This document shows, piece by piece, positions 36,371 through 49,907 of a DNA stretch of 64,000 nt. Below the pieces are notes generated by a model. That model was given only the letters and a program-made list of their open reading frames with translations, was not told the DNA's origin and made no database searches. The stretch lies in the NCBI RefSeq assembly GCF_021404305.1, contig NZ_JABFTX010000002.1:682001-746000 (forward strand), read 5' to 3'. Both the position numbers and the translations under genes were made by a program. The DNA comes from Billgrantia ethanolica (lineage in GTDB: Bacteria > Pseudomonadota > Gammaproteobacteria > Pseudomonadales > Halomonadaceae). Position 1 is the first letter of the stretch. Every line of letters begins with the position of its first letter.

Positions 36371-36784
36371 TCAAGCCTCGGGAACGACGGCGGTCGCTTC
36401 GATCTCCACCTTGGCCCGGTCCTCGATCAGATCGGCTACCTGGACCATGGTCATGGCCGGGAAGTGCTTGCCTATCACCTCGCGATAGGCGGCACCCACC
36501 TCCTTGAGCCGGGCCAGATACTCCTGCTTGTCGGTGACGTACCAGGTCAGCCGCACCAGGTGTTCGGGGCCGGCACCGGCGACCTGGAGCACCTCGACGA
36601 TATTGGCCAGGGCCTGGTGTACCTGGGCGACGAAATCGTCGCTTTCGAAGACCTGATCGCCGTTCCAGCCGATCTGGCCGCCGACGAAGATCGTGCGGCC
36701 GCTGGCGAGCACGCCGTTGGCATAGCCCACGGCGGCCTTCCAGTGAGAAGGGTGAAGCAGCTGGTGGGAGATGGCGTCATTCAT
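36371..36784 (-). CDS. RidA-family (YjgF/YER057c/UK114) protein lacking the canonical Arg
   Basis: 137-residue RidA-superfamily member with the family core (GQIGWNGD, HQALANIVEVLQVAGAG in part, KVEIEATAV). RidA enzymes hydrolyse reactive enamines and imines to keto compounds and ammonia, holding the substrate carboxylate with an arginine in an FPARS-type motif. Here that motif is FPAMT (Met111), so a free carboxylate substrate is unlikely. The gene overlaps the thioesterase by 8 bases and is last in the anthranilate-CoA run. A role in deaminating a CoA-bound enamine is inference. AAGGA precedes the chosen ATG at 36784. Confidence 0.85.
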   Translation of the reverse strand: MNDAISHQLLHPSHWKAAVGYANGVLASGRTIFVGGQIGWNGDQVFESDDFVAQVHQALANIVEVLQVAGAGPEHLVRLTWYVTDKQEYLARLKEVGAAYREVIGKHFPAMTMVQVADLIEDRAKVEIEATAVVPEA

Positions 36785-37202
36785 CTTGATATCCTTGTTG
36801 GCAGTCCTGGGCGAAGTGCCGGCGCATATCGTCGGGCCAGGGCAGGGGGCGGCCACTGTCCAGACCGACGAACACCAGGGTGGAATGGCAGGTCAGGCGC
36901 GGTTCGCCGTTGCAGTGGGCCAGGGTGCACAGGGTCAGGCTGGTACGTCCGACGTCACGCAGCGTGAGTTCGAAGGTGAGCGTCTCGCCCAGCCGGCTGG
37001 GGGCATGGAAGTCGGTCTCGATGTGCGCCGTGGGCACGCCGGTGCGGCTCTCCACGTGGAGCCGGTTGAAGTCGTGGCCTACCCGTTCGGCGAAATAGTC
37101 TTCCACCACCGAGTTGAGCATCTCGTAGTAGCGCGGGTAGAACACGATGCCCGCCGGGTCGCAGTGCTGGAAGCGCACCTTGCGCTGGGTGACGAATGGC
37201 AT
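36777..37202 (-). CDS. 4-hydroxybenzoyl-CoA-type thioesterase
   Basis: 141-residue hotdog-fold acyl-CoA thioesterase. The catalytic motif FQHCDPAGIVFYPRYYEML is at residues 11-29, with Asp15 the likely catalytic base. Such enzymes release aryl or acyl groups from CoA. Placed in a CoA-dependent aromatic operon, it could rescue CoA from dead-end thioesters, as proposed for other aromatic-CoA pathways. It overlaps the RidA gene by 8 bases and starts 12 bases after livF. Confidence 0.88.
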   Translation of the reverse strand: MPFVTQRKVRFQHCDPAGIVFYPRYYEMLNSVVEDYFAERVGHDFNRLHVESRTGVPTAHIETDFHAPSRLGETLTFELTLRDVGRTSLTLCTLAHCNGEPRLTCHSTLVFVGLDSGRPLPWPDDMRRHFAQDCQQGYQDE

Positions 37203-37214
37203 GGCGGCTTCCTC

Positions 37215-37895
37215 TCAAACGCCCAGGTAGCGGTCGCGCAGACCGTCGTCGAGTGCCGCTGGCTGCCCCGTCCATACCGTGCGCCCTTTCTCCAGAATGG
37301 TGCAGCGGTCGGCCACCGGCAGCAGCTCGGCCAGCGACTTGTCGACGATCAGGGTCGACTGGCCCTGAGTCTTGAGCTCGCGAATGGCGGCCCAGATCTC
37401 GTGACGGATCACCGGGGCGAGCCCCTCGGTAGCCTCGTCGAGGACCAGCAGCCTGGGGTTGGTCATCAGCGCGCGACCGATGGCGAGCATCTGCTGCTCG
37501 CCGCCGGAGAGGGTGCGCGCCATCTGGGTACGCCGCTCGGCCAGACGCGGAAAGAGCTTCTCCACCCGTGCCTGGCTCCAGTAGCCGGGGCGCGCCGTGA
37601 CCACCAGGTTCTCGCGCACCGAGAGGTTGGGGAAGCAGCGCCGCCCCTCGGGCACCAGGCCGAGGCCGGCCTGGGCGATGCGGTACGACGGCAGGCGGCG
37701 CAGATCGTGGGATTCGAATGTGATGCTGCCGCTGCGCGCCGGGGTGAGGCCGAAGATGGAGCGGATGGTGGTGGTCTTGCCCATGCCGTTGCGCCCCATC
37801 AGCGCCACCATCTCGCCGGCCTGGACGCTCAGGTCGACGCCGAACAGCGCCTGGGAGGGGCCGTAGAAGGTCTCGATCGCGGTGACGTTCAGCAT
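37215..37895 (-). CDS. livF: Branched-chain-type ABC transporter ATPase (LivF)
   Basis: 226-residue ATPase of the HAAT/branched-chain amino acid import class. Walker A GRNGMGKTT (about residue 34-42), signature LSGGEQQ and Walker B LLVLDEATEGLAP are complete. LivF-type proteins lack the C-terminal extension of LivG. It overlaps livG by 7 bases. In aromatic catabolic operons such importers take up benzoate-like or amino-acid-like substrates, and anthranilate is the natural candidate here. Confidence 0.92.
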   Translation of the reverse strand: MLNVTAIETFYGPSQALFGVDLSVQAGEMVALMGRNGMGKTTTIRSIFGLTPARSGSITFESHDLRRLPSYRIAQAGLGLVPEGRRCFPNLSVRENLVVTARPGYWSQARVEKLFPRLAERRTQMARTLSGGEQQMLAIGRALMTNPRLLVLDEATEGLAPVIRHEIWAAIRELKTQGQSTLIVDKSLAELLPVADRCTILEKGRTVWTGQPAALDDGLRDRYLGV

Positions 37896-38641
37896 GTCGC
37901 CTCTCCCAGGTAGGCTTCGCGGACTTGCGGGTTGGCACGGATCGCGGCGCTGTCGCCCTGGGCGATCACGCCGCCGGCCACCAGCACCGAAATGCGGTCG
38001 GCCAGGCGAAACACGGCGTCCATATCGTGTTCGATCAGCAGGATTGGTACCTCGTGCTTGAGCGCCTCGAGCAGCTCGGTGAGATGCGCCGTGCCCTCCG
38101 GACCCAGTCCGGCCATGGGTTCGTCGAGCAGCAGTACCCGGGGCTTGAGCGCCAGCGCGCAGGCCACTTCCACCTGACGGCGTTCGCCGTGGGAGAGTTC
38201 GGCCACCTGGGTGTCGGCGCGGTGGGTGAGTGCCATGCGTTCCAGCGCCTCCAGCGCCGGGACCAGCAGGCTTTCGTCGCGCTGCACCGGCTTCCAGAAG
38301 CGGAAGCTATGACCCTGCAGCGCCTGTACGGCGATCATCACGTTGCGTTTCACCGATAGCGGCTCGGCCAGCGACGAGACCTGGAAACTGCGCCCCAGCC
38401 CCAGCCGGGCCCGCTGGGCCACGCTGAGTGAGGTGATCTCCTGGCCGGCCAGCACGATACGGCCGGAGTCGGGTTTCAGGCTGCCGGCGATCTGGCCGAT
38501 CAGGGTCGACTTGCCGGCGCCGTTGGGGCCGATCAGGGCATGGATCTCGCCGGGGTACAGGTTCAGCGAGACGTCGCGGGTCGCCTGCAGCGCACCGAAG
38601 CGCTTGTTGAGATCGATGAGCTCGAGCACGGTATCACTCAT
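37889..38641 (-). CDS. livG: Branched-chain-type ABC transporter ATPase (LivG)
   Basis: 250-residue ATPase with Walker A GPNGAGKST (about residue 38-46), Walker B LLLDEPMAGLGPE and the H-loop LIEHDMD. The signature is LSHGERRQVE, and the C-terminal NPQVREAYLG extension marks the LivG class. It overlaps livM by 8 bases and livF by 7, so all four membrane-complex genes are translated together. Confidence 0.92.
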   Translation of the reverse strand: MSDTVLELIDLNKRFGALQATRDVSLNLYPGEIHALIGPNGAGKSTLIGQIAGSLKPDSGRIVLAGQEITSLSVAQRARLGLGRSFQVSSLAEPLSVKRNVMIAVQALQGHSFRFWKPVQRDESLLVPALEALERMALTHRADTQVAELSHGERRQVEVACALALKPRVLLLDEPMAGLGPEGTAHLTELLEALKHEVPILLIEHDMDAVFRLADRISVLVAGGVIAQGDSAAIRANPQVREAYLGEATC

Positions 38642-39680
38642 GACGCTCCCTCCCGGCCAGCCAGCCCATCACGCCATGCTTGGCGAACAGCACCACGAAC
38701 AGCAGCACCAGGCCGAGGAAAAGCTGCCAGTACTCGGTCATGCCGCCAAGCAGCGTCTCCATCATCACGAACAGCAGCGCGCCGGCCAGCGGCCCGTAGA
38801 GTCGGCCCACGCCGCCGAGTATCACGATCACCATCAGTTCGCCGGACATGTGCCAGCTGAGCATGGTGGGGCTGACGAAGCCGTTGAGGTCGGCATACAG
38901 CGCTCCCGCCAGTCCGGTGATCATTGCCGAGATGACGAAGGCGACCAGGCGAATGGGATAGGGCGAGATGCCGGCGGTGGCCAGGCGCGTGTCGTTGAGT
39001 CGCGCCATGGTCAGCGCGGCGCCGAAGCGCGACTTCATGATCCGCGAGGTGAGGGCGAGCGAGAGCACGAGCCCGCCGAAGCAGATCAGGAAGAAGGTCA
39101 GGGCGTCGTTGGTGTCTACCCACGGCAGGCCGTTGCGCAGGAAGATCGGTAGGCCGTCCTCACCGCCGTAGGTGGGCCAGGAGTTGGCGAAGTAGTACAT
39201 CATCTGGGCGAAGGCCAGGGTGATCATGATGAAGTAGACCCCGGTGGTGCGCAGCGAGATGGCACCGATGGCCAGCGCCAGCAGGCCGCACAGCAGGATC
39301 GCTGCGAGCCAGATCACCAGCATGCTGTCGCTGCCGGGAATGGCGATTGGCCAGCCGATCACCGGGGTGAAATCGAAGGCGTGATAGGCGCTGATGCCGG
39401 CCACGTAGCCGCCCAGACCGAAGTAGGCGGCGTGGCCGAAGCTGACCATGCCGCCGTAGCCGATGGCCAGGTTGAGGCCCACTGCGGCCATGGCGATCAG
39501 GGTGATGCGCGAGGCCAGATTGACGTAGTAGATGTGCCCCAGGAAATAGAGCGCCAGGGGTGCCAGCAGCAGGAAGGCCAGCAGGCCGATCTGCACCAGT
39601 CCCTTGCGGTCGTACCAGCTGGCCGCCGGTGTCGGCAGCCCCGGCTGGGGTGCGAGCGTCGAGGTGTTGGACTTATTCAT
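38634..39680 (-). CDS. livM: Branched-chain-type ABC transporter permease (LivM)
   Basis: 348-residue permease with about ten membrane helices and the LivM landmark AVGLNLAIGYGGMVSFGHAAYFGLG (cited in part). I start it at ATG 39680; a TTG three codons upstream is open but lacks a ribosome site. The start lies inside the livH 3' end (8-base overlap). The product pairs with LivH to form the channel. Confidence 0.92.
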   Translation of the reverse strand: MNKSNTSTLAPQPGLPTPAASWYDRKGLVQIGLLAFLLLAPLALYFLGHIYYVNLASRITLIAMAAVGLNLAIGYGGMVSFGHAAYFGLGGYVAGISAYHAFDFTPVIGWPIAIPGSDSMLVIWLAAILLCGLLALAIGAISLRTTGVYFIMITLAFAQMMYYFANSWPTYGGEDGLPIFLRNGLPWVDTNDALTFFLICFGGLVLSLALTSRIMKSRFGAALTMARLNDTRLATAGISPYPIRLVAFVISAMITGLAGALYADLNGFVSPTMLSWHMSGELMVIVILGGVGRLYGPLAGALLFVMMETLLGGMTEYWQLFLGLVLLFVVLFAKHGVMGWLAGRERHE

Positions 39681-40587
39681 TGGCGGCAAACAGTCCCTTG
39701 GGTTTGAAGGCGAGAATGGCGGCCATCATGATGTAGATCAGCATGGCGGCGATGGCCGAACCGACGCCGGCGGCCTCCGAGGGGCTCATGAACTGGCGGA
39801 AGAAGGCGGGCAGGAACACTCGCCCCAGGGTATCCACCACGCCGACCAGGATGGCGCCGTACAGCGCCCCCTTGATCGAGCCGATGCCGCCGATCACGAT
39901 CACCACGAAGGCCAGGATCAGCACCGGTTCGCCCATGCCCACTTGCACCGACTGCAGCGCACCGACCATGGCGCCGGCAAGGCCGGCCAGCGCCGCGCCC
40001 ATGGCGAACACCAGGGTGTAGAGACGGGCGATGTTGACGCCCAGCGCACCGATCATCTCCCGGTCGCTCTCGCCAGCACGGATGCGCATGCCGAGTCGGG
40101 TACGGGTGATCAGGAAATACATGCCTACCGCCACGGCCACCCCCACGGCGATGATCACCAGCCGGTAGATGGGGTAGCGCAGCCCGCCGGGCAGCGTGAC
40201 CGAGCCCGACAGCATGGCCGGCGGGTTGAGCCACAGCGGCGAGGAGCCGAACACCCAGCGCGTGCCCTCGGAGAAGATCAGGATCAGGGCGAAGGTGGCC
40301 AGCACCTGGTCCAGGTGCGGACGGTGATAGAGCCGGCGGATCACGATCAGCTCCACTAGAGCGCCGACCGCGGCGGCCACGGCGATGCCCGCGACCAGGC
40401 CGACGAAGAAGGAGCCGGTGGCGGCGGTCACCAGCGCCGTGGCGTAGGCGCCGACCATGTAGAAGGAGCCATGGGCCAGGTTGATCAGGCCCATGACCCC
40501 GAACACCAGAGTCAGGCCGCTGGCCATCAGGAACAGCATGGTACCGAGCTGTAGGCCGTTGATGAGCTGTTCGATGAATAATGTCAT
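39673..40587 (-). CDS. livH: Branched-chain-type ABC transporter permease (LivH)
   Basis: 304-residue permease with the LivH opening LINGLQLGTMLFLMASGLTLVFGVMGLINLAHGSFYM (partly quoted) and the cytoplasmic coupling loop RTRLGMRIRAGESDREMIGALG in pieces. About eight membrane helices. It is the first channel gene, 67 bases after the binding-protein gene, in the usual order for this importer type. Confidence 0.92.
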   Translation of the reverse strand: MTLFIEQLINGLQLGTMLFLMASGLTLVFGVMGLINLAHGSFYMVGAYATALVTAATGSFFVGLVAGIAVAAAVGALVELIVIRRLYHRPHLDQVLATFALILIFSEGTRWVFGSSPLWLNPPAMLSGSVTLPGGLRYPIYRLVIIAVGVAVAVGMYFLITRTRLGMRIRAGESDREMIGALGVNIARLYTLVFAMGAALAGLAGAMVGALQSVQVGMGEPVLILAFVVIVIGGIGSIKGALYGAILVGVVDTLGRVFLPAFFRQFMSPSEAAGVGSAIAAMLIYIMMAAILAFKPKGLFAANE

Positions 40588-40654: not shown

Positions 40655-41797
40655 TCACATCTGGCACTGCTCGTGATAGATGTCCTGGATGTCCTCCACG
40701 GCGATGCCGACCAGACGGTTGGTGGGCTGGCCGTCGTCACCCTCGACCACTTCACGCACGTGGATGTCCTGGATCGGATGGTGGTTGGGGCCGAACCGGA
40801 ACTTGCCGCGCACCGTGTCGAAATCGGCTTCGCGCAGGGCTTCGCGGAAGGCGTCCTGATCGCTCGGGTGGGCCTTCTCCAGCGCACTCAGGATCAGGTT
40901 GGCGGTGTCGTAGCCCTGGGCGGCATACAGCGTCGGCATGCGACCGTAGGCCTCGCGGAACGCCTCGACGAAGGTGTGGTTGGCCTCGTTGTCGAGATCG
41001 TAAGCCCACAGCGAGGTGTTCATGGCGCCGATGGCGGCGCTGCCTACCGCCTTGATGATGGTCTCGTCGAAGGAGAAGGCGGCACCGAACACCGGCAGGT
41101 CGACGCCGGAGTTCTCCCACTGCTTCATGAACGAGATGCCCATGCCGCCGGGCAGGAAGAAGAACAGGCTGTCGGCGTCGCTGGCGCGGATACGGGCGAT
41201 CTCGGCGGCGTAGTCGGTCTGCCCCATCTGGGTGTAGATCTCGTCGACGACCTCGCCTTCGTAGAGATGCTTGAAGCCGGCCAGGGCGTCGGTGCCGGCG
41301 GGGTAGTTGGGCGCCAGCAGGATGGGCCGCTCGAAGCCCTGTTCGCGCATGTAGGCGCCCATGGCCCCGTGCAGGTTGTCGTTCTGATAGGCGACGTTGA
41401 AGTAGTTCTCGTGACACATGCGCCCGGCCAGGTCGGAGGGCCCGGCGTTGGGAGAAATGTAGAAGGTACCCTGGCGGACGGCCGCCGGCACCACCGCCAT
41501 GGCCAGATTGGACCAGATGATGCCGGTGAGGATGTCGACGTTGTCGCGCTGCATGAACTCGTTGGAGAGGCTGCGTGCCAGATCGGGACGGTTGGCATCG
41601 TCCTGGATCAGCACCCTCACATCGTTGCGTCCCGAGCGCTCCATGGCCAGCATGAAACCGTCGCGTACGTCCACGCCCAGGTGCGAACCGCCGCCGGAGA
41701 GCGTGGTGATCATGCCGATTCTGACCTCATCGGCCTGAACCGCCGTCATGCTGGCGGTCATCAGCAGGCCGAGGCCAAGGCTAGCTAGTCTCTTCAT
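40655..41797 (-). CDS. Periplasmic substrate-binding protein of the ABC importer
   Basis: 380-residue binding protein of the leucine/isoleucine/valine-binding (type I, Peripla_BP_6) class with a signal peptide (residues 1-23). The mature part opens with EVRIGMITTLSGGGSHLGVDVRDG, here shortened. The start is the ATG at 41797 preceded by GAGGG; upstream codons look non-coding. Relatives in aromatic clusters bind benzoate-like acids, so anthranilate or a related aryl acid is a reasonable guess. The C-terminus has two cysteines close to the end (HEQCQM and an earlier CHEN). Confidence 0.88.
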   Translation of the reverse strand: MKRLASLGLGLLMTASMTAVQADEVRIGMITTLSGGGSHLGVDVRDGFMLAMERSGRNDVRVLIQDDANRPDLARSLSNEFMQRDNVDILTGIIWSNLAMAVVPAAVRQGTFYISPNAGPSDLAGRMCHENYFNVAYQNDNLHGAMGAYMREQGFERPILLAPNYPAGTDALAGFKHLYEGEVVDEIYTQMGQTDYAAEIARIRASDADSLFFFLPGGMGISFMKQWENSGVDLPVFGAAFSFDETIIKAVGSAAIGAMNTSLWAYDLDNEANHTFVEAFREAYGRMPTLYAAQGYDTANLILSALEKAHPSDQDAFREALREADFDTVRGKFRFGPNHHPIQDIHVREVVEGDDGQPTNRLVGIAVEDIQDIYHEQCQM

Positions 41798-41946
41798 GGG
41801 GATACCCTCTTCGTTCTCGTTTTTGTTTCCTTGGCGCAACGTGTCCAGCGCCTCGTTAGGTTGGCCTGTCAGCCATGGCTGTCGGGCCGATTTCGCCGTC
41901 AGTCTGATCCACCGCCGGGCCTTCCGATGTCCGGCCATCGAACGCC

Positions 41947-42026
41947 CGGTCATCACTCGCCTGGCTCCGGCATCAATTGCCTGGCTCGGTCATCAATTGC
42001 CTGGCTCGGTCATCAATTGCCTGGAT
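41947..42026 (-). repeat. 20-bp tandem repeat, 4 units, spanning the CoA-ligase stop codon
   Basis: Units at 41947-41966, 41967-41986, 41987-42006 and 42007-42026. The last two differ only at their final positions (GCT/GAT), the first is more diverged. The unit nearest the gene contains its last codons and the TGA (42013-42015), so the gene end has been copied three times downstream. Confidence 0.95.
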
Positions 42027-43644
42027 AGTGCTCCTGACGCAGCCGGAAGCGCTGCACCTTGCCGGTGGCCGTCTTCGGCAGCGCCTCGACGAAGCGCACC
42101 GAACGCGGATACTTGTAGGGGGCGATGCGCTGCTTGACGAACGTCTGCAAGCGCTCGACGCACTCGGCATCCGGCTCGACCCCGGGAGACAGTACCACGA
42201 AGGCCTCGACGATCTGCCCACGCTCTCCATTCGGTGCGCCGATTACGGCACACTCCGCCACCGCCTCGTGGGCCAGCAGGGCGGCTTCCACCTCGGGACC
42301 GGCAATGTTGTAACCCGCCGAGACGATCATGTCGTCGTTGCGGGCGGCGAAGTGGAAGTAGCCCTCCTCGTCCTGAACGAAGGCATCACCGGTGATGTTC
42401 CAACCGTTGATCACGTACTTGCGTTGACGTGCATCGTCCAGATAGCGACAGCCCGTGGGGCCGCGCACCGCCAGACGTCCCACCTCCCCGCGGGGCAGCT
42501 CGTTCATCTCGGCATCGACGACCTTGGCCTCGTAGCCGGCTACCGGCTTGCCGGTGCAGGCCGGGCGATGGTCGTCCAGATGGTTGGAGATGAAGATGTG
42601 CAGCATCTCCGTGGCCCCGATGCCGTCGAGGATCGGCTTGCCGGTCTTCTCGATCCATTCATGGTAGATCGGTGCCGGCAACGTTTCGCCGGCCGAGACC
42701 GCCAGGCGCAGGCTGTCGAGTTCCTCGCCGCTTTCGAGCGAGGCGAGCATGGTGCGATAGGCGGTGGGGGCAGTAAATACGACGGTGGCACGATGCTCGC
42801 GGATGATCTCCATCATGTTGGGCGGCGTGGCCTTCTCCAGCAGTACTGCGCTGGCGCCGAAGCGCAGCGGGAAGATGGCCAGCCCGCCGAGGCCGAAGGT
42901 GAAGGCCAGCGGCGGCGAGCCGACGAAGACGTCGTCCGCACTCACTTGCAGCACCTCGCGGGCGTAGCCGTCGGCGATGATCAGCAGGTCGCGATGGAAA
43001 TGCATGGTGGCCTTGGGCTGGCCGGTGGTGCCGGAGGTGAAGCCGAGCAGGGCGACATCGTCGGCGGCGGTGGCGACCGCCTCGAACTCGGTGGGCTTGT
43101 CCAGCGCCAGGCGGTCGAGTTCGGCGTCATGGTTGGCGGTGCCGTCGAAGCCGACGACCCGTTCGAGGAAGGCACTCTCGGCGGCGCAGGCCTCGAGTTC
43201 CTCGAGCAGACGGGTGTCGCACAGGGCCAGAGCGATCTCGGCCTTGTCGACGATCTGGGCCAGTTCGCCCGCACGCAGCATCGGCATGCTGTTGACCACC
43301 ACCGCCCCGGCCTTGGTCGCGGCCAGCCAGCAGGCGACCATGGCCGGGTTGTTGGCCGAGCGGATCAGCACCCGGTTGCCGGGGCGCACGCCGAGCTCTT
43401 CTACCAGCGCATGGGCCAGGCGGTTGCTCCACTCGGCAAGTTCGCGGTAGCTGCGTCGTCGGCCGTTGCCGATCAGCGCCACGCGCTCGCCGTGGCCGCG
43501 CTCGAGCCAGCGGTCGCAGAGCTCCACCGCGGCGTTGAGCCGCTCGGGATAGTCGAAGCCGTCGAGCCTGAGCTCGGGCCATTCATGCACGGGAGGCAGG
43601 TTGTCCCGGGCAAAGGTATCGGCATGAGCCGACGGTGTGTTCAT
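42013..43644 (-). CDS. Benzoate/2-aminobenzoate-type CoA ligase
   Basis: 543-residue AMP-forming ligase. The ATP motif GFTSGTTGQPKAT is at residues 201-213, with GATEMLHIF (A5-like), NGWNITGDAF and NDDMIVSAGYNIAGPEVE plus the catalytic Lys in KTATGKVQRFRLR. The opening SAHADTFARDNLPP and the overall pattern match the benzoate-CoA ligase family, particularly 2-aminobenzoate (anthranilate)-CoA ligases. Its place between the acyl-CoA dehydrogenase and the importer, with a 2-aminobenzoyl-CoA monooxygenase in the operon, supports anthranilate as substrate. GGAG is 7 bases before the ATG at 43644. Its 3' end is embedded in a tandem repeat. Confidence 0.85.
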   Translation of the reverse strand: MNTPSAHADTFARDNLPPVHEWPELRLDGFDYPERLNAAVELCDRWLERGHGERVALIGNGRRRSYRELAEWSNRLAHALVEELGVRPGNRVLIRSANNPAMVACWLAATKAGAVVVNSMPMLRAGELAQIVDKAEIALALCDTRLLEELEACAAESAFLERVVGFDGTANHDAELDRLALDKPTEFEAVATAADDVALLGFTSGTTGQPKATMHFHRDLLIIADGYAREVLQVSADDVFVGSPPLAFTFGLGGLAIFPLRFGASAVLLEKATPPNMMEIIREHRATVVFTAPTAYRTMLASLESGEELDSLRLAVSAGETLPAPIYHEWIEKTGKPILDGIGATEMLHIFISNHLDDHRPACTGKPVAGYEAKVVDAEMNELPRGEVGRLAVRGPTGCRYLDDARQRKYVINGWNITGDAFVQDEEGYFHFAARNDDMIVSAGYNIAGPEVEAALLAHEAVAECAVIGAPNGERGQIVEAFVVLSPGVEPDAECVERLQTFVKQRIAPYKYPRSVRFVEALPKTATGKVQRFRLRQEHYPGN

Positions 43645-43745
43645 GACCATTCTCCGTACGTCGTTGTTGTTGTTCGGCGCGGAAGCGTCGACAGGGGATA
43701 CGGGTCTGGCTGGTGTCTCGTCGCTTTGGTTATTGGTCTTGTTGC

Positions 43746-44893
<1,148 letters not shown>

Positions 44894-44894
<1 letters not shown>

Positions 44895-45703
44895 CAATCC
44901 CCCTCGAAGACCGGCTTCTGTTTGGCGGCGAAGGCGCGGTAGGCGCGCTCGAAGTCGCGGGTCTGCATGCAGATCGCCTGGGCCTGTGCCTCGGCCTCGA
45001 TGGCCTGCTCCAGGCTCATCGACCACTCCTGGTTGAGCTGGGTCTTGGTGATGCCGTGGGCGAAGGTGGGCCCCTGGGCCAGACGGGTGGCGTAGGCGAT
45101 AGCTTCTGCTTCCAGCGCATCGGGCTCGACCAGGCGATTGTAGAAGCCCCATTGATGGCCCTCTTCCGCGCTCATGCTGCGTCCGCTGTAGAGCAGGTCG
45201 GCGGCGCGGCCCTGACCGATGATGCGCGGCAACATGGCGCAAGCGCCCATGTCGCAGCCGGCCAGGCCCACCCGGGTGAAGAGAAAGGCGGTGCTGGCCC
45301 GGGGCGTGGCGAAGCGGATGTCCGAGGCCATGGCGATGATCGCGCCGGCACCGACGCAGACGCCGTCCACCGCGCTGATCACCGGTTTTCCGCAGTTGAT
45401 CATCGCCTTGACCAGATCACCGGTCATGCGGGTGAATTCGAGCAGGCCCTTCATGTCGCGACCCACCAGCGGGGCGATGATCTCGTGGACGTCGCCGCCG
45501 GAGCAGAAGTTGCCGCCGTTGGCGGCGAACACCACGGCTTTCACGTCCTCGGCGTAGACCAGATGGCGAAAGGTATCGCGCAGCTCGGCGTAGCTGTCGA
45601 AGGTGAGCGGATTCTTGCGTTCGGGGCGGTCGAGGCGGATCACCGCCACTTCGCCCTCCATGCGCCACAGGAAATGCCTGGGCGTCAGGTCGGCCAGTTT
45701 CAT
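44894..45703 (-). CDS. Enoyl-CoA hydratase/isomerase family protein
   Basis: 269-residue crotonase-fold protein. The oxyanion-hole strand is [16 protein letters not shown], and the second is [18 protein letters not shown], partly quoted. The region where classical hydratases carry a catalytic Glu reads [15 protein letters not shown], i.e. without that Glu, so it may be a ring hydrolase or isomerase rather than a plain hydratase. Start ATG overlaps the marR stop. Crotonases are used in ring opening in CoA-dependent aromatic pathways. Confidence 0.85.
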
Positions 45704-46167
45704 GGTCGTGCTCCCGTGTCGGCCGGCAAGCGGTGCAGCAGCTCGCCGATGTGGTGGGCATCCTCGGCATCGACGCCATCCAGTAGTTCGTTGACCCAAC
45801 CCTCGTGGGCCTCGGCCATGACGGTGAAGGCGTCGCAGCCGGAGGAGGTGAGGCGTACCCGGGTGGCGCGGCGGTCCCCTTCGATGGCGATGCGCTCCAC
45901 CAGGCCGTCCTCGGCCAGGCGGTCGACGATGCCGGTGACGTTGCCGTTGGAGACGCGCAGCCGCTTGGAGAGCTCGTTCATCTTCAGCCCCTCGCGGTCG
46001 CGATAGAGCGCGGCCATGACGTCAAAGCGCGGCAGGGTGGAGTCGAACTCCAGGCGCAGCTTCTCGCGCAGCGCCGCTTCCACCTGGCGGGTCACTCTGA
46101 GCATGCGCAGCCACAGGCGCAGGCGCTCCTTGCTCAGGGCGTCGGATTTTGCCGTTGGTGCGCTCAT
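45700..46167 (-). CDS. MarR-family transcriptional regulator
   Basis: 155-residue winged-helix regulator with the MarR recognition region [30 protein letters not shown] (partly quoted) and the wing [11 protein letters not shown]. It is embedded within the aromatic-CoA operon, overlapping genes on both sides by 4 bases. MarR proteins of such operons usually repress until an aryl-CoA thioester binds. The inverted repeat at 49263-49294 ahead of the operon is the likely operator, so autoregulation is expected. Confidence 0.9.
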
Positions 46168-46919
46168 GTCTCGCCTCCCGAAATGGAGATCGCCTGGCCG
46201 TGGATGGCGCTACTGTGCGGACCGCACAGCCACAGCGCGGTGGCGGTGACCTCGGCGGGCTGGATCAGCCTGCCGCTGGGATTGGTCGACTGCAGGTGGG
46301 CGCGGGCCTGCTCCACCGTCTGCCCGGTCTTGGCCACGATGGTGGCGATGCTTTCATCCAGCAGCGGGGTCTCGGTAAAGCCGGGGCACAGTGCGTTGAC
46401 GGTGATGTCGCGTCCCGCCACTTCCTGGGCCAGGGCGCGTACCAGGCCCACCACGCCATGCTTGGCGGCGCAGTAGGGTGCCACGTAGGGGTAGCCCTTG
46501 AGCCCGGCGGTGGAGGCCACGGCGATCAGCCGGCCGCCCTCGCGCACGTGCTTGAGGCCCTCGCGCAGGGTCAGGAACACGCCGGTCAGGTTGACGTCGA
46601 GCATGCGCTGCCACAGGTCGAGCCCGGTTCTGGCCAGCGGCGCGCTCTCGGCGGCCCCGGCATTGGCGATCACGATATCGACCTCGCCCAGGCGCTCGAA
46701 CAGGGCGACCATATCGGCCTCGCGGGTTACGTCGGCGACGGCGGTAGCGATGTTGGGATGGCGATCGGCCAAGGCGTCGAGCGCAGCGATGCGCCGTCCG
46801 GTGATGGTGACCTCGGCGCCGGCCTCGGCGAAGGCCAGCGCCATGTCGGCACCGATGCCGCTGCCGCCGCCGGTGATCACCGCGCGTTTGCCTGCGAGGG
46901 GAGGCAGGGTCGTGTTCAT
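46164..46919 (-). CDS. Short-chain dehydrogenase/reductase (aromatic-CoA operon)
   Basis: 251-residue classical SDR. GGGSGIG at residues 15-21 binds NAD(P), NAG is at about 89-91, and catalytic Ser/Tyr/Lys lie in [20 protein letters not shown] (partly quoted). The pattern resembles 3-hydroxybutyrate or 3-hydroxyacyl-CoA dehydrogenases. It starts 2 bases after the monooxygenase/reductase gene and overlaps marR by 4. A role in beta-oxidation-like steps after ring reduction is inferred. Confidence 0.88.
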
Positions 46920-46921
46920 GG

Positions 46922-49207
46922 TCACACCCACCCCTCGCCGCGCTCGGCCAGGCGCTGTAGCTGATCGCGCCCGGCCCGATAGGGGGCCGGCCACTCGCAT
47001 TCGCCGTCCTGGATGCCGGCGGCGGCGTGCAGCGTCCAGTAGGGGTCGGCCAGGTGGGGGCGAGCCAGGCACACCAGGTCGGCGCGACCGGCCATCAGGA
47101 TCGAGTTGACGTGGTCGGCCTGGTAGATGTTGCCCACCGCCATGGTCGCCATGCCGGTCTCGTTGCGGATGCGATCCGAGAAGGGTGTCTGGAACATGCG
47201 CCCGTACTGCGGCTTGGCCTGGGTCGAGGTCTGCCCGGCGGAGACGTCGACGATGTCGACCTCGACGGCCTGGAGCAGGCGGGCGATCTCGACTGCCTCA
47301 TCGGGGGTGACGCCCTCGTCGCCGACCCAGTCGTTGGCCGAGATGCGCACCGAGAGCGGCTTGTGGGCCGGCCAGGCGGCGCGCACGGCGCGGATCACCT
47401 CCAGCGGATAGCGCATGCGGTTCTCGAGCGAACCGCCGTAGTCGTCGTCGCGGCGGTTGGTTAGCGGCGTGATGAAGGAGGAGAGCAGGTAACCGTGGGC
47501 GGCATGCACCTCGAGCATGTCGAAGCCGGCACGCTCTGCCATCCGGGCGGCGGCGACGAACTCGTCGCGCACCCGCTCCATGTCGGCGCGATCCATGGCC
47601 CTGGGCACCTGATTGCGCGCCGACCAGGGCACGGCGGAAGCCGCCATGATCGGCCAGTTGCCTTCGGGCAGCGGCGCGTCCATCTCCTGCCAGCCGAGCT
47701 GGGTCGAGCCCTTGGGTCCGGAGTGGCCGATCTGGGCGCACAGCTTGGCCGGCGTCTCGGCGTGGACGAAGTCGCACAACCGCTGCCATGCCGCCTCGTG
47801 TTCGGGGGCGTAGAAGCCGGGGCAGCCGGGGGTGATACGGCCCGCCGGCGAGACACAGGTCATCTCGGTGTAGACCAGCCCGGCGCCGCCCTTGGCGCGC
47901 TCGGCGTAGTGCACGAAGTGCCAGTCGCTGGGGCAACCGTCCACTGCCTTGTACTGGGCCATGGGCGAAACCACCACCCGATTGATCAGCTGCATGTCGC
48001 GTAGCCGGTAGGGGGCGAACATCGGCGCCCGCGCGCTGCCCTCATTGCCGGCCTGGGCCTGGAACCAGCGCTCAGCGCTCTCGAGCCAGGCCGGGTCGCG
48101 CAGGCGCAGGTTCTCGTGGCTGATGCGCTGGGAGCGGGTCAGCAGCGAGTAGTTGAACTGCACCGGGTCGAGGTCCAGGTAGCGCTCCACCTGCTCGAAC
48201 CACTCGGTGGAGTTGCGCGCCGCCGACTGCAGGCGCAGTACCTCCAGGCGGCGCTCCTCCTCGTAGCGGTCGAAGGCGCTGGCCATGTCGGGCTCGCTGT
48301 GCAGGTAGTCGGCCAGCGCGATGGCGCTCTCCAGCGCCAGCTTGGTGCCCGAACCGATGGAAAAGTGCGCGGTGGCGGCGGCGTCGCCCATCAGCACCAC
48401 GTTGTCGAAGCTCCAGCGCGCGCACAGCACCCGGGGGAAGTTGATCCACGCCGAGCCGCGAATGTGGTTGGCATTGCTCATCAGCGCGTGGCCGTCGAGG
48501 TGCCTGGCGAAGATGCGCTCGCATACCGCGATCGACGCCTGTTGGCTCATCTCGCCGAAGCCGAAGGCGCGCCAGGTGGCTTCGCTGCACTCGACGATGA
48601 AGGTCGCGGTATCGGCGTCGAACTGGTAGGCGTGAGCCCACACCCAGCCGTGCTCGGTCTTCTCGAAGATGAAGGTGAAGGCGTCGTTGAAGGTCTGGTG
48701 AGTGCTGAGCCAGACGAACTTGCAGGCACGCACGTCGATGTCGGGCTGGAAATGCTCGGCATAGCGCTGCCGGGTACGTGAATTGAGGCCGTCGGCGGCC
48801 AGCACCAGATCGAACTCGCGGCGCAGCTCGTCGATGGCGGCTTCGGGGATATCGCTCTCGAAGCGCAGCTCGATGTCGAGCTCCCGGGCGCGCGCCTGCA
48901 GCAGCAACAGCAGCTGGCGGCGGCCGATACCGCAGAAGCCGTGACCGGTGGAGACGGTCTTGACGCCGTCGTGGATCACGGCGATGTCGTCCCAGTAGGC
49001 GAAGTGCTCGCGAATGCGTGCCGCGCTCACGGCATCGTTGGCGGCCAGATTGTCCAGCGTCTCGTCGGAGAGCACCACGCCCCAGCCGAAGGTGTCGTCG
49101 GGGCGGTTGCGCTCTATCACCACGATCTCGTGCGCCGGGTCGTGCAGCTTCATGCTGATGGCGAAGTAGAGGCCGGCGGGGCCACCGCCCAGGCAGGCGA
49201 TTCTCAT
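46922..49207 (-). CDS. Bifunctional 2-aminobenzoyl-CoA monooxygenase/reductase-type flavoprotein
   Basis: 761-residue fusion. The N-terminal half is a flavin monooxygenase ([15 protein letters not shown] at residues 7-21, the GD motif in [18 protein letters not shown]). From about residue 390 the C-terminal half is an Old Yellow Enzyme-type reductase ([27 protein letters not shown] in part, [11 protein letters not shown]). This two-domain build matches the Azoarcus evansii enzyme that hydroxylates and reduces 2-aminobenzoyl-CoA to 2-amino-5-oxocyclohex-1-ene-carbonyl-CoA; salicylyl-CoA 5-hydroxylases are close relatives. The adjacent 2-aminobenzoate-type ligase favours the former. First gene of the operon, start at 49207. 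Confidence 0.88.
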
Positions 49208-49294: not shown

Positions 49295-49418
49295 AATCGT
49301 TGAAGAACGTTTTTCCCTCGGCCAAGGATTGACAGTCAGGCTGGCAAGGGCGAGTCTGGGGTTTCGGGTTCGGCAGGGTCCGGGCTGCAACCGGCTTCGA
49401 AGGGGAAGGAGGCTCACC

Positions 49419-49907
49419 ATGCTGGAACAGTGCAAGACTGCCAGGGAACGCTGGGGTGGTGTGCATCAGCTGATCGATCGCTGGCTCGACGAGCGCCGTG
49501 AGCTGCTGGTCAGCTTCATCGAGCTCAAGGAGGCCTGCGATACTGAGCTCGAGGCTGTGTGCAAGCCCCAGATCGATCGCTTCAGCGAACTACTGATGGA
49601 TTACATCAGTGCCGGCCACTTCGAGATCTATCCGCAGCTGCGTGAGGAGGCCAACGCCTTTGAAGATCACGAAGCGCTGGAAATCGCCGCCAAGCTTTTG
49701 GAGCGCCTCGAGCTCTCCACCGAGCTGGTGCTGGCCTTCGACGCCGACTTCTCGACCCCGGTGCGCTGTCAGCATTTCCTGCCGCGCCTGCCCGCTTGGC
49801 TCGATCGTCTGGCCAAGGGGCTGACCGAACGCTTCGCCCTGGAAGACCAGTTGATCGCCAGGCTGCACGCAGCGCATACGCCGCGTGCGGAAACCGAAAC
49901 CGAATAG
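49419..49907 (+). CDS. rsd: Rsd/AlgQ anti-sigma-70 factor
   Basis: 162-residue helical protein of the Rsd/AlgQ family, which binds sigma-70 and favours alternative sigma factors in stationary phase. The opening [22 protein letters not shown] in pieces and FCELKE-like FIELKEACD are family features; length matches AlgQ (about 160). AAGGAGG lies 6 bases before the ATG. A perfect -35 TTGACA occurs at 49329-49334 but its -10 is weak. A strong terminator follows. Confidence 0.93.

Follow-up and report, generated by a model that had tools for sequence, protein, structure and literature searches.

The window (the whole stretch of 64,000 nucleotides of Billgrantia ethanolica that was analysed) carries on its minus strand an operon spanning about 49207 to 36371. 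In the order of transcription it encodes a homologue of 2-aminobenzoyl-CoA monooxygenase/reductase (ACMR), a short-chain dehydrogenase/reductase (SDR), a MarR-family regulator, an enoyl-CoA hydratase (ECH), an acyl-CoA dehydrogenase (ACAD), a ligase, a five-gene ABC transporter of the Liv/Urt type, a 4HBT thioesterase and, as its last gene, a RidA-like protein. The features are given below by increasing coordinate.

36371-36784, minus strand: RidA-like protein, 137 aa, final gene of the operon (ORF, Pfam, AlphaFold2 model)
36452-36454, minus strand: codon of Met111, equivalent of RidA Arg105 (profile alignment; Met in 84/84)
36777-37202, minus strand: 4HBT-type thioesterase (4HBT_2, 56 bits; adjoins RidA in relatives)
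37215-37895, minus strand: ABC transporter ATPase, LivF/UrtE type (profile matches)
37889-38641, minus strand: ABC transporter ATPase, LivG/UrtD type (profile matches)
38634-39689, minus strand: ABC permease, LivM/UrtC type (profile matches)
39673-40587, minus strand: ABC permease, LivH/UrtB type (profile matches)
40655-41956, minus strand: periplasmic substrate-binding protein (Peripla_BP_6 profile match)
42013-43644, minus strand: benzoate-CoA-ligase family protein (TIGR02262, 389 bits against a cut-off of 375)
43746-44894, minus strand: acyl-CoA dehydrogenase (via the homologue L122:4869-6020, 71% identical, with Acyl-CoA_dh domains)
44894-45703, minus strand: enoyl-CoA hydratase family protein (PRK08258, 482 bits, above cut-off)
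45700-46167, minus strand: MarR-family regulator (several MarR models, all below their own cut-off)
46164-46919, minus strand: SDR
46922-49207, minus strand: ACMR homologue (NF006101, 1286 bits against a cut-off of 1078)

The ACMR homologue combines an FAD monooxygenase domain with an OYE domain. Its listed open reading frame extends to 49435, but the start at 49207 is the likelier one: residue 77, a Met, is where the match to the family sets in, and a frame extended to 49435 would run into the divergent Rsd/AlgQ gene (49329-49907). The NCBIfam name of NF006101 is salicylyl-CoA 5-hydroxylase/oxidoreductase; the RidA-linked members are probably 2-aminobenzoyl-CoA monooxygenase/reductases. The ligase was scanned within the frame 42013-44577, its start at 43644 being chosen by comparison with the sequence of relatives, and its product is likely a 2-aminobenzoate-CoA ligase. 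A 20-base tandem repeat (3.9 copies, 41946-42024) covers the stop codon of the ligase gene and the spacer to the gene for the substrate-binding protein.

The last gene encodes a Rid-family protein (P0002) that fills 36371-36784 exactly, and its start overlaps the 3' end of the thioesterase gene by 8 bases. The plus strand is also open in one frame here; a filter on codon-phase GC retains the minus frame only. The protein matches Pfam Ribonuc_L-PSP (PF01042) with 84.6 bits (cut-off 27.3) and stays below the cut-off of the RidA subfamily TIGR00004 (62.7 against 106.25 bits). An AlphaFold2 monomer built with 47 sequences (mean pLDDT 95) has as its top Foldseek match 5v4f, YyfB of Y. pestis (TM 0.84/0.86, 32% identity), followed by many RidA proteins; all 50 matches listed are Rid-family entries, which places the model in the Rid fold. 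When solved structures were compared to the subfamily profile, none appeared inside the Met-type subfamily, the best being 5v4f with 66 bits. Long open frames upstream of RidA were considered as possible fusions of RidA to a partner protein. Nearly all of them look like shadow frames, since their codon-phase GC is unlike that of coding sequence, and no RidA fusion protein was recognised among them.

The earlier note had described a RidA-like protein without the substrate arginine in an aromatic-CoA operon. Both parts were confirmed: the coordinates of the reading frame are exact, the FPAMT motif is present (residues 108-112) with Met111 opposite Arg105, and the ACMR homologue and the ligase both score above their family cut-offs (1286 and 389 bits). 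In the profile alignment to solved RidA-type structures, Met111 stands opposite the Arg of FPARS/YPARS, and the active-site Glu of the EIEA motif (Glu127, which we take to be Glu120 in RidA numbering) is retained, as is the active-site Tyr. Met111 is found in 84 of the 84 sequences compared (the window and 83 relatives more than 40% identical, obtained by tblastn without a motif filter from 102 fetched regions, less similar relatives being excluded). Equally invariant are Glu127, Tyr21, Trp15, Asn23 and Trp40. In a further set of 80 named loci the Met count (79 plus the window) is not independent, as the patterns used to find these loci include the PAM motif.

For comparison, 51 Rid places were located in 17 genomes, nine of them in the host's own genome. 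Forty of the 42 places outside this genome were fetched and 38 aligned; one is the ACMR-linked gene of G433 (a Met), and the remaining 37 served as control with R at the site in 27, S in 6, W in 2, N in 1 and A in 1. Six paralogs of the host itself (the ninth Rid gene, L141, was left out of this alignment) have R (4), S (1) and W (1), so the host keeps Arg-bearing Rid proteins, presumably for ordinary imine detoxification. Met in all 84 relatives against none of these 43 other Rid proteins indicates that Met at the Arg105 position is the mark of a subfamily and no random loss.

The protein can be set against the known Rid groups (literature statements refer to the parts of the cited papers that were covered). 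It shares with archetypal RidA (TIGR00004; E. coli YjgF and TdcF) the fold, the family, the active-site Tyr and Glu and the place of the PAxx motif, but differs in having Met for Arg105, in scoring below the subfamily cut-off and in its linkage to ACMR. The Arg is described as essential in RidA and absent from Rid4-Rid7, groups whose role is called unknown ('mysterious'), although about 10% of RidA proteins have Ser in its place (PMC4433059); the same Arg criterion is restated elsewhere (PMC5619798, PMC7221256). By the criteria of PMC4433059 the window protein resembles Rid4-Rid7 (no Arg, Glu kept, Tyr/Phe kept), but Rid4 and Rid7 have Trp at the site where it has Met, and Rid5 and Rid6 are variable there. 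YyfB, the closest solved structure, likewise lacks the Arg; its site reads PAANS, with Asn where the window protein has Met. YyfB is probably the Rid5/6-like Y3550 (we infer that the two names denote one protein), an Arg-less Rid reported to be without Rid deaminase function and located within an aromatic aminotransferase island (PMC7221256). The 2-aminomuconate deaminase AmnE of the 2-aminophenol pathway is also a Rid-family deaminase dedicated to aromatic catabolism; its Arg (Arg117) is retained and its substrate is a free acid (PMC6742747). The window protein has neither this Arg nor an aminophenol gene cluster around it, lying instead in an ACMR cluster, and the structure 6izh reaches only 27 bits against the profile.

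We further examined the linkage of the gene to ACMR. Among 58 relatives, 12 places in 10 genomes score above the ACMR cut-off, and the window as well as 10 of the 11 other places carry RidA (81-93% identical) within the ACMR cluster. At the eleventh (G039) a partial RidA match, about 17 kb from ACMR, falls at the border of the fetched DNA, and in G044 a sub-cut-off ACMR lies near a contig end with no RidA seen. ACMR (E<=1e-200) occurs in 17 of 369 genomes of the class and in 71 of 398 genomes of the phylum. A protein search for RidA in 80 ACMR-positive genomes (omitting G000, G039, G044, G267 and G300, of which the last two have ACMR at a contig edge) gave a match at E<=1e-18 in 78, with RidA within 13 kb of ACMR at 69 of the 82 ACMR places. 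Three of the other 13 places are of the gentisate type discussed below (G698, G751 and G628:C29), seven lie on contigs that end within about 2 kb of ACMR, and in three RidA is far away. In two of these three (G794, 38 kb; G494, 1.8 Mb) RidA sits within an SDR-MarR-ECH-ACAD-ligase operon and ACMR is elsewhere; in the third, G521, it lies 984 kb from the ACMR-SDR-MarR-ECH-ACAD-ligase cluster (L090).

Across the 398 Pseudomonadota genomes RidA was found at E<=1e-30 (a threshold picked after the spread of the 80-genome search was known) in 69, all of them among the 71 with ACMR, against 0 of the 327 ACMR-negative genomes (Fisher's test, 9e-76, kinship uncorrected). The only two of these 71 without RidA are G698 and G751, both of the gentisate type. 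Gene order differs between loci while RidA is retained.

When GTDB genomes were scanned with the alignment, at least 80 loci were found, by title all from Pseudomonadota except one Acidobacteriota MAG among the matches listed. The best 80 named loci include ACAD in 72, ECH in 69, the ligase in 69, MarR in 68, ACMR in 50 (it can sit just past the 10 kb flank in this operon), SDR in 48 and the thioesterase in 38. Of the plasmid records, 94 carry ACMR at E<=1e-100 and 84 carry RidA at E<=1e-20. Linked pairs extend to Arthrobacter sp. Rue61a (plasmid pAL1, RidA 4 kb from ACMR), Arthrobacter ERGS1:01, two Rhodococcus and Deinococcus psychrotolerans, as well as to the haloarchaea Haladaptatus and Natronosalvus. 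The linked RidA proteins of these seven are 27-58% identical to the window protein and have Met at the site in six (PAM or PTM) and Leu (PAL) in Haladaptatus; two Pseudomonadota reference strains aligned alongside read PAM, as does the Streptantibioticus RidA. Both genes are also present in Paracoccus denitrificans PD1222 (ACMR PDEN_RS25280, RidA PDEN_RS25310) and in Ruegeria pomeroyi DSS-3 (ACMR SPO_RS21895, RidA SPO_RS21860). In the incomplete gene tables of four annotated actinobacterial regions no enoyl-CoA hydratase is listed, and SDR and ACAD appear only in L235. On the haloarchaeal plasmids an ACMR-like FAD monooxygenase, an LLM flavin enzyme, ACAD and RidA (PAL or PTM; L224 16590-17009 and L234 5824-6231) occur together, a set that appears to be an archaeal version of the cluster.

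Clustering with ACMR and the ligase is thus conserved across genomes and into other phyla. The earlier note had proposed conservation beside ACMR as a check, and the counts (present in 69 of the 71 genomes with ACMR and in none of the 327 without it; 69 of 82 places within 13 kb) bear it out. As well as genomics can show it, the RidA-like protein belongs to the 2-aminobenzoyl-CoA pathway. Tryptophan 2,3-dioxygenase was detected in 20 and kynureninase in 14 of the 128 regions with ACMR and RidA together (a number that includes some places fetched twice). In several regions these genes belong to the operon itself, and the host genome carries a kynureninase-domain gene. Identity for such neighbour counts was above 38% by default and above 28% in one tally; these two counts are equal under both. 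Tryptophan dioxygenase and kynureninase are a source of anthranilate. Auxin is also broken down to anthranilate (PMC9613470).

A second copy in the host's own genome is part of a short cassette IorA-IorB-ACMR-thioesterase-RidA (L034/L032, C29, about 662632-669590), present in two genomes of the genus (also L045/L046, G005), with no close ECH or ACAD in view in the own-genome copy. Its gene content suggests that an aryl-glyoxylate, perhaps isatinate, may enter as anthraniloyl-CoA.

Some loci depart from the general pattern. In six ACMR regions (L106, L126, L130, L228 from a plasmid of Cupriavidus taiwanensis STM 8555, L230 and L231 of Novosphingobium) gentisate dioxygenase and FAH lie near ACMR and the thioesterase; ECH and ACAD above 38% identity are absent there, and so is a Met-type RidA (in L230 the Rid gene 6 kb from ACMR is Asn-type, PAPNT). 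We assume, judging by the name of the NCBI family and by the neighbouring genes, that these are nitrogen-free salicylyl-CoA/gentisyl-CoA routes. A quickly built ACMR tree puts them in two places among the RidA-linked loci, the second of which is uncertain as L106 forms a long branch. ACMR regions with neither RidA nor gentisate dioxygenase also exist (L121, L127, L031, L090, L051 of G039 and L132, which stops at a contig end).

Twenty further RidA places consist of nine Ser-type ones, all without pathway genes in view, and 11 Met-type ones, of which five have pathway fragments, two the gentisate set and four (L280, L281, L282 and L290) no close pathway genes. The Ser-type gene is a separate paralog with an FPPST motif, whose identity to the window protein is 44-46%; it is found at L277, L279, L285, L287-L289 and L291-L293 (genomes G451, G620, G604, G518, G737, G689, G563, G786 and G767).

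A strict rule that gentisate dioxygenase excludes RidA had to be discarded. Two regions (L085 and L194) contain ACMR, RidA and gentisate dioxygenase together. In two others (L278 and L284) a second RidA of the Met type is accompanied by gentisate dioxygenase, FAH, ACAD and IorAB, with no ACMR in the fetched region. RidA is missing from the narrower class alone, in which ACMR comes with gentisate dioxygenase and FAH but without ECH or ACAD above 38%. L278 and L284 may possibly represent a gentisyl-CoA branch, and we speculate that at loci with both gentisate genes and RidA a deaminated dione could be oxidised to gentisyl-CoA. The ACAD of L278 is similar to cyclohexanecarboxyl-CoA dehydrogenase, and a Rieske oxygenase is encoded nearby. 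A second strict rule, that Met-type RidA occurs only beside ACMR, was given up because of L280-L282 and L290. Near the Met-type gene of L282 are genes for an aldehyde ferredoxin oxidoreductase, POR and an AMP-binding ligase, and near that of L280 xanthine-dehydrogenase-type and POR genes, which raises the question of whether these copies might serve another CoA pathway.

A Rid protein is not new to such clusters. As Schuhle and colleagues reportedly described in 2001, the 2-aminobenzoate gene cluster of Azoarcus evansii, the first described, lists a 'putative translation inhibitor protein', for which they are said to have proposed no catalytic role; we take it to be probably the orthologous gene. 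Its presence in these clusters has therefore probably been recorded already, and what would be new is its proposed function.

In the openly licensed PMC papers, as far as covered, we found no statement on the role of a Met-type RidA in anthranilate-CoA breakdown, which is weak evidence of novelty. The covered parts give the ACMR product with later steps of beta-oxidation (PMC4539516), mention the abm genes (PMC2842291) and note that pathway curators omitted the anthranilate-CoA route for lack of knowledge (PMC9007349). General roles in aromatic regulons have been suggested for COG251 enamine deaminases, where the part covered names 2-aminomuconate-type substrates and not the ACMR product (PMC6449761).

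We propose, with a probability of roughly 0.7, that the RidA-like protein acts as an enamine/imine deaminase dedicated to the aerobic degradation of 2-aminobenzoyl-CoA. The ligase would make 2-aminobenzoyl-CoA, which ACMR would hydroxylate and reduce to the beta-enamino thioester 2-amino-5-oxocyclohex-1-ene-1-carbonyl-CoA. The imine tautomer of this product would then be hydrolysed by the RidA-like protein, releasing ammonia and leaving the beta-keto thioester 2,5-dioxocyclohexanecarbonyl-CoA, which could be opened or oxidised by the crotonase and dehydrogenases of the operon. Glu127 would still activate water, but a carboxylate-gripping Arg would be unneeded and could be replaced by Met, since the carboxyl group of the substrate is a thioester. 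The earlier note had argued that an Arg-less RidA suits such a masked carboxyl; the invariant Met (84/84) fits a substrate without a free carboxylate, and the note's interpretation is partly supported, the reaction itself being put forward here as a proposal. The linkage persists in other phyla, and in the four annotated actinobacterial regions ECH is unlisted and SDR and ACAD are listed in one only (the gene tables being incomplete), so the shared substrate would most simply be the ACMR product. Given the family, the missing step, the Met at the carboxylate site and the persistence amid changing downstream genes, deamination of this product appears to be the simplest chemistry that fits.

Published observations bear on this proposal from both sides. 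We count in its favour a C7H8O4 CoA ester, possibly cyclohexanedione-carboxyl-CoA, that is described only for anthranilate-grown Arthrobacter Rue61a, in the same source as a C7H7NO3 ester interpreted as hydroxyanthraniloyl-CoA (PMC3534580). On the other side, the Rid field deems the Arg necessary for imine hydrolysis, and the Arg-less Y3550 is reported to be without Rid deaminase function (PMC4433059, PMC7221256). It might also be argued that the enzyme is dispensable, since below pH 5 the ACMR product is not stable, and its deamination by hydrolysis has been seen to proceed chemically (PMC3534580). Against an exclusive role are the Met-type copies away from ACMR (two beside gentisate dioxygenase, and the G521 gene at 984 kb). 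The separated genes of G494 and G794 and the ACMR regions L121, L127 and L031, with neither RidA nor gentisate dioxygenase, also count against the proposal; moreover, the gentisate class is small and its salicylyl-CoA substrate assumed.

It is unlikely, though worth weighing, that the protein acts on a later enamine of the same pathway, a ring-opened or dehydrogenated CoA compound, instead of directly on the ACMR product. Such a step would be available at most loci (ECH in 121 and ACAD in 113 of the 128 regions), and the Met-type RidA of L278 and L284 stands beside ACAD and gentisate dioxygenase without ACMR in the region. Nonetheless, the second cassette of the host combines ACMR, thioesterase and RidA with no close ECH or ACAD in view, and ECH is unlisted in the four annotated actinobacterial regions.

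We consider it very unlikely that the protein is no deaminase at all and instead serves ACMR or the thioesterase as a binding or allosteric partner, for instance as a CoA-ester sensor or scaffold. This would agree with the Arg-less Rid groups described without an assigned activity (PMC4433059) and with the 8-base overlap of the two genes. Yet the deaminase-site residues Glu127 and Tyr21 are invariant in 84/84 and no fusion was recognised, and RidA stays while a thioesterase is detected in just 58 of the 128 regions and in 38 of the best 80 named loci.

A function like that of archetypal RidA, namely a guard that clears stray 2-aminoacrylate-type enamines or imines and shields PLP enzymes such as kynureninase, is highly improbable. 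The family membership, the kynureninase genes in 14 of the 128 regions and the tolerance of the site implied by the Ser-bearing RidA proteins (about 10%; PMC4433059) speak for it. Against this, Arg is found in 0 of 84 sequences while four other Rid proteins of the host carry it, kynureninase is unseen in 114 of the 128 regions, and RidA at E<=1e-30 is found in none of the 327 ACMR-negative genomes. Finally, we give hardly any credit to a generic Rid gene hitchhiking without function in a mobile catabolic cluster: the clusters do occur on plasmids (94 ACMR records), but RidA is kept despite varying gene order, many sites are invariant and the Met is mostly kept down to about 30% identity.

Extending the deaminase reading from this operon to the whole subfamily is less secure. 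That Rid proteins with Met for Arg105 act as ammonia-freeing enamine-CoA deaminases throughout Pseudomonadota, Actinomycetota, Deinococcota and haloarchaea seems to us somewhat better than an even bet.

If correct, the proposal would give, in the literature covered, the first function for an Arg-less branch of the Rid family. The Arg has been taken as the mark of imine-hydrolase activity (PMC4433059); it would then serve to clamp the carboxylate and would not be needed for imine hydrolysis as such. This rule becomes directly testable, since an Arg-less Rid group now comes with a single-substrate hypothesis and a near-perfect genomic linkage. Met-type copies near IorAB and gentisate genes or near an aldehyde ferredoxin oxidoreductase would mark further enamine-CoA deaminations, and many entries named 'RidA family protein' and 'salicylyl-CoA 5-hydroxylase' could receive better names. 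Overall, the nitrogen-release step would be filled in for a route that degrades anthranilate, a product of tryptophan and auxin breakdown.
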